64,000 bases of DNA, from positions 310,001 through 374,000 of the forward strand of contig NZ_JANUCQ010000002.1 of assembly GCF_024807035.1 (NCBI RefSeq), read 5' to 3'. Both the position numbers and the translations under genes were made by a program. Under the pieces are notes generated by a model. The model was not told where the DNA came from and made no database searches. It saw nothing but the letters and a program-made list of their open reading frames with translations. The stretch comes from Methanococcus voltae PS (GTDB lineage Archaea; AGJL01; Methanococci; Methanococcales; Methanococcaceae). Every line of letters starts with the position of its first letter. Positions within the stretch are counted from its first letter, which is position 1. Of this stretch, positions 9,098 to 44,977 are shown one piece after another.

Positions 9098-9159
9098 TTG
9101 GTGGATGATGAACGGAGTAGCTTCTGATTTCATGATGATTTTGATCCTACTGACACCAA
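9098..9159 (+). ncRNA. C/D box sRNA (guide for 2'-O-methylation), copy 1
   Basis: All four boxes are visible: C box ATGATGA at 9105-9111, D' box CTGA at 9124-9127, C' box ATGATGA at 9132-9138 and D box CTGA at 9150-9153. The ends pair through TTGGTG (9098-9103) and CACCAA (9154-9159). The guides are ACGGAGTAGCTT before D' and TTTTGATCCTA before D. Archaeal C/D sRNAs have exactly this size and symmetry and direct fibrillarin to methylate the target base paired to the fifth guide nucleotide upstream of D or D'. Targets were not searched. Confidence 0.93.
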
Positions 9160-9234: not shown

Positions 9235-9307
9235 TTAGTGAATGATGAATCTTTATCTTCTGATTAACTTAACATTTCATGATGAAAGATGGGCGAGCTG
9301 ACACTAA
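9235..9307 (+). ncRNA. C/D box sRNA (guide for 2'-O-methylation), copy 2
   Basis: The boxes are C ATGATGA at 9242-9248, D' CTGA at 9260-9263, C' ATGATGA at 9279-9285 and D CTGA at 9298-9301. The terminal stem is TTAGTG (9235-9240) with CACTAA (9302-9307). Guides are ATCTTTATCTT before D' and AAGATGGGCGAG before D. It lies 75 bp downstream of the first sRNA on the same strand, with only AT-rich DNA between, so the pair may share a transcript. Confidence 0.93.
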
Positions 9308-43239: not shown

Positions 43240-43605
43240 TTATTGGATTAATCCACTCATTAATTTTCCAATAGATATTACATCTACACCTTTTCCTAAC
43301 CCAAATTCGTATTCTACACTTCCAATTACGAGCTTTATTTCACTGTCTAAATCAAATGTTCCTGAATTTTGGATAGCGTAGCTATTAATTTTACTATATT
43401 GGAAAAACCTAAATTCTTTCTTTTTTCCAGTTAATCCCTGTGCATTCATCATTATTATCCTTGATGGAGTAAAGACCAATTCATCACGTACTCCTTTAAA
43501 TGAACATAGTATTTCTTCCCCATCTAATAAAAATTCTTTAAAAAATGGATTTTCATTCCCTCGGTTGTCTTTTCCGAAAAATCCCAATTTTACAACATTT
43601 ATCAT
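43240..43605 (-). CDS. Bacterial-type PH domain protein
   Basis: The 121-residue protein fits the prokaryotic PH fold: FLLDGEEILCSFKGVRDELVFTPSRIIMM, then FRFFQYSKINSYAIQNSGTFDLDSEIKL. Its role is unknown. ATG at 43605 lies five bases after GAGGG; the TTG at 43617 includes part of that site and is rejected. Confidence 0.78.
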   Translation of the reverse strand: MINVVKLGFFGKDNRGNENPFFKEFLLDGEEILCSFKGVRDELVFTPSRIIMMNAQGLTGKKKEFRFFQYSKINSYAIQNSGTFDLDSEIKLVIGSVEYEFGLGKGVDVISIGKLMSGLIQ

Positions 43606-43847
43606 ATTTACCCTCAATTTATTTTTTGAATTATTAATGCAGTATTTTTAATAAAATCTGGCATTATATACTGTTAAATATACATTTTTTCTATTATTCT
43701 TATTATATAACATTTTTTATTTAAATTTAGATAGCATAATATTTAAAAAATAAGATTAGTGAAAATAGGATAGACAAAACCAATAAATTTATAAGATTTT
43801 AAAAATTAAATTTGAGTAAATTCAAGTTAAATGAAGTTTAAAAAAGA

Positions 43848-43957
43848 GTGCTCTCAGTATCTGTGTATTCATCATTTTCAAATTGCTATAAACTCATAAT
43901 CCGATACACTATGATAGCAATATTGACTTCAGTAGAGATGACAATCATCATCGAGCA
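43848..43957 (-). ncRNA. C/D box sRNA with hairpin in the D'-C' spacer
   Basis: On the minus strand: TGCTC (43957-43953), C box ATGATGA (43951-43945), guide TTGTCATCTCTA, D' box CTGA (43932-43929), a 53-base spacer, C' box ATGATGA (43875-43869), guide ATACACAGATA, D box CTGA (43857-43854), then GAGCA closing the terminal stem. The spacer, normally 3-9 bases in archaea, contains perfect 8-bp arms ATTGCTAT (43921-43914) and ATAGCAAT (43889-43882), which would bring D' and C' near each other. It occupies the gap between the PH-domain gene and surE. Confidence 0.85.
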
Positions 43958-44167: not shown

Positions 44168-44977
44168 ATGGATAAAATTGATATATTATTAGTTAATGAC
44201 GATGGAATTCAATCAAATGGGTTATTAGAATTAAAAAATTCATTAGAAAATAATTTTGATGCAAATGTGACTGTTGTAGCTCCTTCAAATCAACAAAGCG
44301 GTATCGGAAGAGCTATAAGTTTATTTGAACCCCTTAGAATAACAAAAGTTAAGCTTCCAGACTGTACGGAAGGTTTTGCCGTTTCTGGAACGCCTACGGA
44401 CTGTGTCGTTCTTGGAATATTTAAAATACTTGATAAAATACCAGATTACGTGGTATCTGGAATAAATATTGGTGAAAATTTAGGTACTGAAATCACCACT
44501 TCTGGAACTCTTGGAGCTGCTTTTGAAGGAGCTCATCACGGTGCTAAATCAATAGCTTGTTCATTGCAGGTTAAAACTGACGATATTAAATTTAATGAAG
44601 GTCATGCCCCTGTTGAGTTTAAAAATTCTGCTAAAATATTAAGCAATGTACTTAAAAAATCCATTGAATGTGACGTATTCGATAGCGGATGTGACGTTTT
44701 AAATGTAAATGTGCCACATGAAGCAGATACTAAAACGCCTTGGGAAATCACTACTCTTGCTAAAAAAATGTACACCACCCATATTGACCAAAGAAAAGAC
44801 CCTAGGGGTAGGGATTACTATTGGATTGATGGTAGTCCCGTATATGATGAGGAAGAGGGTACAGACGTACACGCCGTTAGAAATAAAAATAATGTTTCAA
44901 TTACGCCTCTTACTTTAGATACTACTTTGAAAAATTTAGAATTGTTTAAAAAAGAATATTCTGATAAATTAATTTAG
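44168..44977 (+). CDS. surE: 5'-nucleotidase SurE
   Basis: SurE removes phosphate from nucleoside monophosphates. The 269-residue protein has the metal-binding NDDGIQSNG near residue 8, APSNQQSGIGRAI, and VVSGINIGENLGTEITTSGTLGAAFEGA, all family signatures. ATG at 44168 follows GGTGATAAT. The gene converges on rnp2 with only 18 bp between stops. Confidence 0.96.
   Translation: MDKIDILLVNDDGIQSNGLLELKNSLENNFDANVTVVAPSNQQSGIGRAISLFEPLRITKVKLPDCTEGFAVSGTPTDCVVLGIFKILDKIPDYVVSGINIGENLGTEITTSGTLGAAFEGAHHGAKSIACSLQVKTDDIKFNEGHAPVEFKNSAKILSNVLKKSIECDVFDSGCDVLNVNVPHEADTKTPWEITTLAKKMYTTHIDQRKDPRGRDYYWIDGSPVYDEEEGTDVHAVRNKNNVSITPLTLDTTLKNLELFKKEYSDKLI

Follow-up and report, generated by a model that had tools for sequence, protein, structure and literature searches.

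How does an archaeal box C/D guide RNA accommodate a 53-nt hairpin between its D' and C' boxes, and what might such a hairpin do? The question is raised by an intergenic gene in the window, the 64-kb stretch of Methanococcus voltae PS DNA analyzed here, where it lies between a divergent surE-like ORF (44168-44977, plus strand) and a 125-aa ORF (43240-43617, minus strand). An earlier note on this DNA had described a minus-strand C/D sRNA with a terminal stem, four boxes and perfect 8-bp arms in the spacer; every one of these parts could be located between 43957 and 43848, and the arms are present and pair as described (Table 1). Below, we discuss the evidence that the gene probably encodes a housekeeping box C/D methylation guide whose D'-C' hairpin closes the internal C'/D' kink as a k-turn-like motif.

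Anatomy of the sRNA gene

All four boxes match the consensus, RUGAUGA for C and C' and CUGA for D and D', and occur in the order C-D'-C'-D. The guides, at 12 nt (D') and 11 nt (D), fall within the 10-12 nt expected for an archaeal box C/D sRNA. The spacer fold extends beyond the 8-bp arms in both directions, with an outer TCAA/TTGA helix that carries a bulged T and a further inner helix.

Table 1. Elements of the box C/D sRNA gene, in window coordinates and in the order in which they are read on the minus strand
Feature	Position	Strand	Remarks
Box C/D sRNA gene, whole	43848..43957	-	Intergenic; orthologs in 7/7 Methanococcus genomes
Terminal stem, 5' strand TGCTC	43953..43957	-	Pairs with 43849-43853; invariant or compensated among relatives
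Box C, ATGATGA	43945..43951	-	Same in all relatives
D' guide, TTGTCATCTCTA, 12 nt	43933..43944	-	11 bp to 23S CAGAGATGACAA (position 2480); predicted G2484 methylation
Box D', CTGA	43929..43932	-	
D'-C' spacer, 53 nt	43876..43928	-	Hairpin fold, -13.1 kcal/mol
Outer hairpin arm TCAA	43923..43926	-	Pairs with TTGA 43881-43878; single bulged T at 43922
Hairpin arm ATTGCTAT, 8 nt	43914..43921	-	Compensatory U-A to C-G (G019) and G-C to A-U (G020)
Hairpin arm ATAGCAAT, 8 nt	43882..43889	-	Perfect pairing with ATTGCTAT
Outer hairpin arm TTGA	43878..43881	-	Pairs with TCAA 43923-43926
Box C', ATGATGA	43869..43875	-	Hairpin to GA pairs, 4 nt (AAAU)
D guide, ATACACAGATA, 11 nt	43858..43868	-	Target not found; degenerate relative to other genera
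Box D, CTGA	43854..43857	-	
Terminal stem, 3' strand GAGCA	43849..43853	-	
T6 tract	43840..43845	-	Directly beyond 3' stem; possible transcription end; relatives with similar T tracts

The spacer hairpin is conserved as a structure in Methanococcus

Short boxes in A+T-rich DNA could in principle bring box-like words and an inverted repeat together by chance, and the whole 114-nt RNA is of ordinary stability (z -0.76), with a naked-RNA fold in which the C box is able to pair with the guide. The spacer hairpin on its own is moderately unusual: the minimum free energy of the 53-nt spacer is matched by 0.75% of dinucleotide shuffles (p=0.0075), and arms of at least 8 bp arise in 1.25% of them. Because the whole RNA is ordinary in stability and the lone hairpin is only moderately unusual, the case for significance is built on conservation in relatives.

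A DNA search and a pattern search covered 36 genomes of the order. Seven of these are Methanococcus genomes, which by our own reading comprise a voltae-type group (the present genome, G000, with G019 and G020) and a maripaludis/vannielii-type group (G015-G018). In the DNA search, the G019 gene matched at 98% and the G020 gene at 83%; both halves of the sRNA, with a different middle, were found in G015-G018. A long hairpin spacer is present in the ortholog of each of the seven Methanococcus genomes searched, measuring 53 nt in G000 and G019, 55 nt in G020, 34 nt in G015-G017 and 47 nt in G018. Compared with dinucleotide shuffles, the spacer folds give p values of 0.002 in G019, <0.0005 in G015, 0.0015 in G017 and 0.0005 in G018; the hairpins of G020 and G016 are not significant singly (p=0.14 and 0.11). 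Across the 36 genomes, the pattern C-guide-D'-(25-55 nt)-C' matched 23 times, versus once for a reversed control. Conservation in seven genomes refutes chance assembly, and with the nearly empty control and the co-variation of guide and rRNA described below, its probability is negligible.

The spacer is also as exceptional in length as the earlier note had held. The remaining C/D sRNAs found in Methanococcus genomes mostly have spacers of 3-7 nt, with one at 15-16. In the remaining three genera of the family, the spacer of the sRNA that carries guide AGTCATCCCTG is 3-8 nt long where the C' box is consensus and, by eye, 10-11 nt at most where it is not. Matches with 25-55-nt spacers outside Methanococcus were mostly, by eye, apparent coding sequences or neighboring sRNAs, the exception being a tRNA-Met sRNA in G033. 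As far as these 36 genomes reach, the long hairpin of the D'-guide sRNA appears to be a Methanococcus trait. The relatives hold a single RNA, in which a hairpin or a short loop joins D' to C', and not the two unrelated pieces that the earlier note had considered.

An insert-like length, confined to one genus for the D'-guide sRNA, could also suggest an archaeal intron with a bulge-helix-bulge motif or an inserted mobile repeat. By eye, paired 3-nt bulges around a 4-bp helix are absent from every ortholog fold, and the genome holds no second copy of the spacer, with matches at chance level only. Both candidates were rejected on these grounds, and their probability is minimal.

A hairpin fold is found in every Methanococcus spacer, yet the arm sequences are unrelated between G000/G019/G020 and G015-G018. 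Within each group, pairing is retained through compensatory change. The voltae-type alignment of three sequences contains the two compensatory hairpin pairs listed in Table 1 and none in slid controls, with the observed covariation reached by 43 of 500 shuffles. The maripaludis/vannielii-type alignment of four sequences contains four double changes in the hairpin, and its whole-structure covariation was reached by 2 of 500 shuffles. These are small samples, of three and four sequences, in which slid controls across both alignments gave zero or at most one compensatory pair. Covariance of the arms in other methanococci, which had been proposed as a check on the hairpin, is therefore positive within both species groups. 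Judged from these alignments, the Methanococcus genomes preserve the hairpin structure even as its sequence changes.

The same comparison bears on the suggestion, also made in the earlier note, that the loop might serve a third function, such as an extra guide, an accessory rRNA pairing or a protein site. A 12-nt segment, TATCGGATTATG (43906-43895, minus strand), is identical in G000, G019 and G020 despite the changed arms. That run of identity is not significant (P=0.11), however, and the loops of the M. maripaludis and G018 types are unrelated to that of the voltae type. The best runs of complementarity between loop and rRNA are no better than those of shuffled loops (0.31), and no complement of the loop occurs elsewhere in the 64-kb window. 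A function of this kind is very unlikely.

The D' guide follows its target in 23S rRNA

Within its own genome, the D' guide forms 11 bp with 23S positions 2480-2491, a pairing equalled by 0.8% of shuffled D' guides, with a mismatch at the guide base adjoining box D'. By the N+5 rule, this pairing predicts G2484 of the G000 23S rRNA as a 2'-O-methylation site; by alignment the residue corresponds to what we take to be position 2422 in canonical E. coli numbering, in domain V. In G015 and G018, the rRNA sequence CAGGGATGACAA and the guide TTGTCATCCCTG pair at 12 of 12 positions. Relative to the other aligned 23S sequences, the helix around position 2480 in G000 and G020 carries a compensatory C-G to U-A change (CCCCUG/CAGGG to CCUCUG/CAGAG), and a C to U change in the guide matches the rRNA base that changed. 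Because the rRNA helix and the guide changed together, this is good evidence that the D' guide is in use, and it provides a clean example of a guide following its target.

For the D guide, a search of the 23S rRNA of six genomes, the 16S rRNA of four relatives and the 30 tRNAs of the genome itself returned no target above chance; 16S targets were scanned in the relatives' genes, the G000 assembly being without a 16S gene. In G023-type relatives, the D guide GACCTGGGGTAG pairs with 23S CTACCCCGGGGA, 17 nt downstream of the D' guide site. The Methanococcus D guide has changed past pairing with this downstream site.

Other C/D sRNAs were seen in the course of the analysis. On the plus strand of the window, two lie in tandem, at 9099-9157 with guide ACGGAGTAGCTT and at 9236-9306 with guide AAGATGGGCGAG, while in a M. 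maripaludis-type genome both guides are found on one sRNA (L141). The tandem pair seems to have arisen by duplication, with one guide retained per copy. A further sRNA, on the minus strand at G022:C1:748971-749016, has a guide, TGTTATCCCCGG, that forms 12 bp with 23S CCGGGGATAACA of G015/G018. Its 18-nt spacer, TTGGGGCTTCCCTTAATG, could fold into a short stem, and the sRNA is possibly another internal-stem case, outside Methanococcus.

A second hairpin sRNA is predicted to target tRNA-Met

The search for long spacers also identified a second sRNA, with D guide ACCGTATGAGCT, whose spacer is a hairpin in each of the seven Methanococcus genomes. In the elongator tRNA-Met, which contains an intron, its D guide is complementary to GGCTCATACGGA, where anticodon and intron meet, placing N+5 at C34, and the sRNA belongs to the same type as the Cm34 guides already described for tRNA-Met (PMC2584109). 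Cm34 has been reported in a tRNA-Met of M. maripaludis that is labelled Met-i and only possibly corresponds to the elongator (PMC7668247). The spacer of G000 is 40 nt long and forms 17 bp (p<0.0005), that of G019 is 39 nt long, and that of G020 is longer, with ATATTCAT/ATGAATAT. In G015-G017 it forms a 7-bp hairpin, ATTAAAC/GTTTAAT, and in G018 the hairpin carries a compensatory A-U to G-C change. Outside Methanococcus, the G033 sRNA likewise forms a hairpin (p=0.003), and orthologs of the hyperthermophile type in the order have short spacers in most cases.

In G015-G017, the D' guide of this sRNA (L212-L214), AAATAACCAGCT, is complementary to the D arm of the elongator tRNA-Met, GGCTGGTTATAG, as tested on the G000 tRNA. 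Both guides of the sRNA in these genomes may act on one tRNA.

A proposed change from an internal k-loop to a k-turn-like motif

The D'-C' segment of a C'/D' motif stands where stem I of the kink would be. The internal motifs of archaeal C/D RNAs fold as a k-turn when the kink is flanked by a helix and as a k-loop when it is flanked by a loop (PMC8413462), and a helix at D'-C' therefore breaks no rule. Our analysis parts here from the earlier note, which had set the inserted helix against a spacing constraint. The documented optimum of ~12 nt applies to the guide segments C-D' and C'-D (PMC8413462), which are of normal length in this RNA, and internal k-turns are recognized.

Several features bear on how the motif might fold. 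Firstly, a helix flanking the C'/D' kink (stem I) is present by sequence evidence, as a hairpin with compensatory changes. Secondly, the junction in G000 departs from a textbook k-turn, with 4 nt rather than 3 between the helix and the GA pairs and, throughout the voltae-type clade, two unpaired nucleotides after D'. In G015 and G018, the helix begins immediately after D', and the maripaludis-type tRNA-Met sRNA shows a canonical join, with the helix right after D' and a 3-nt AAU on the C' side. Finally, the G000 genome contains an L7Ae gene, with LEV at loop 9. E and V are archaeal L7Ae residues tested for k-loop binding (PMC8413462), and the LEV sequence is consistent with the short-loop sRNAs of the same genome.

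In the mechanism we propose, the D' guide would direct fibrillarin to 2'-O-methylate 23S G2484. The C'/D' motif, a short-spacer k-loop in other genera, would have gained stem I in Methanococcus, and the hairpin would hold D' beside C' and stabilize C'/D', with no separate role for its loop. By our inference, C'/D' gains stability from the hairpin and becomes a k-turn-like site for L7Ae; the transcription of the RNA, its binding by L7Ae as a k-turn, the methylation of its target and an advantage of the stem are likewise inferred.

The spacer may instead have grown neutrally around a D' guide that still works, the hairpin being retained just to keep D' and C' close and not as stem I of a k-turn. 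Such growth would suit a spacer that ranges from 34 to 55 nt, with two unrelated types of arm sequence and, in the G000 type, unpaired nucleotides separating hairpin from boxes; a dead D guide without a target would also leave the internal motif weakly constrained. It accounts less well for the compensatory changes in the arms, for a helix that starts immediately after D' in G015, G018 and the two groups of tRNA-Met sRNAs, and for the appearance of the same change in a second sRNA type. We consider neutral growth unlikely, and favor the k-turn-like motif. A broader proposal, that in two or more of its sRNA types mesophilic Methanococcus systematically replaced internal k-loops with helix-closed k-turns and thereby shifted C/D RNP assembly away from the k-loop di-RNP, is offered only tentatively, as something we doubt more than we believe.

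Comparison with known guide RNAs

The Methanococcus sRNA shares with the archaeal C/D guides that carry an internal k-loop (Pyrococcus type) the boxes C, D', C' and D, guides of 11-12 nt, the N+5 rule and a terminal stem. It differs from them at D'-C', where a 53-nt hairpin takes the place of a short loop. Rfam family RF01307 (sR55) matches the segment C-guide-D' with 23.5 bits (E 0.0017), below the gathering cut-off of 35 bits, a threshold reached by no Methanococcales genome searched. The C box, D' guide and D' box agree with this family near letter for letter (GAUGAUGA-UGUCAUC-CU-CUGA), whereas the second half of the model is unmatched in the Methanococcus sRNA. The sR-tMet/sR49-type Cm34 guides are matched by the D guide ACCGTATGAGCT of the second hairpin sRNA of the genus, which is a separate RNA. 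The Haloferax sR-tMet paper reportedly speaks of unique features in its title.

The debate over whether an archaeal C/D RNP contains a single guide RNA or a pair of them has drawn mostly on artificial RNAs. Di-RNPs were the only product of a natural RNA that has the internal loop, while a loop-less RNA with two k-turns gave a mix (PMC3608112), and the in vivo relevance of mono- and di-RNPs has been called an open question (PMC7089733). A Methanococcus cell would hold native guides whose k-loop is replaced by a helix alongside native sRNAs that retain the k-loop, and the mono/di question could thus be put to natural RNAs in a genetically tractable archaeon. By RNA-seq, M. maripaludis C5 has seven C/D sRNAs (PMC4644070).

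Helix-closed internal motifs are also known from two other settings. A k-turn-like internal C'/D' stem is also found in some eukaryotic C/D snoRNAs, such as Drosophila MeU2-C28 (PMC6770171), although eukaryotic C'/D' boxes are usually divergent and bound differently, whereas both boxes of the Methanococcus sRNA are consensus. In st-sR26, engineered from P. furiosus sR26, a helix likewise replaces the apical C'/D' k-loop; the k-loop was swapped for a k-turn so that the RNP would stay stable for days at 55 C, and the swap stabilized the RNP, left its oligomeric state unaltered and did not cost assembly (PMC7089733). Unlike that engineered RNA, the Methanococcus RNA is natural, and its junction is not perfectly canonical. 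It is best read as a natural, lineage-specific variant of an ordinary box C/D guide RNA, and seems to be the natural counterpart of a guide RNA that was stabilized by hand.
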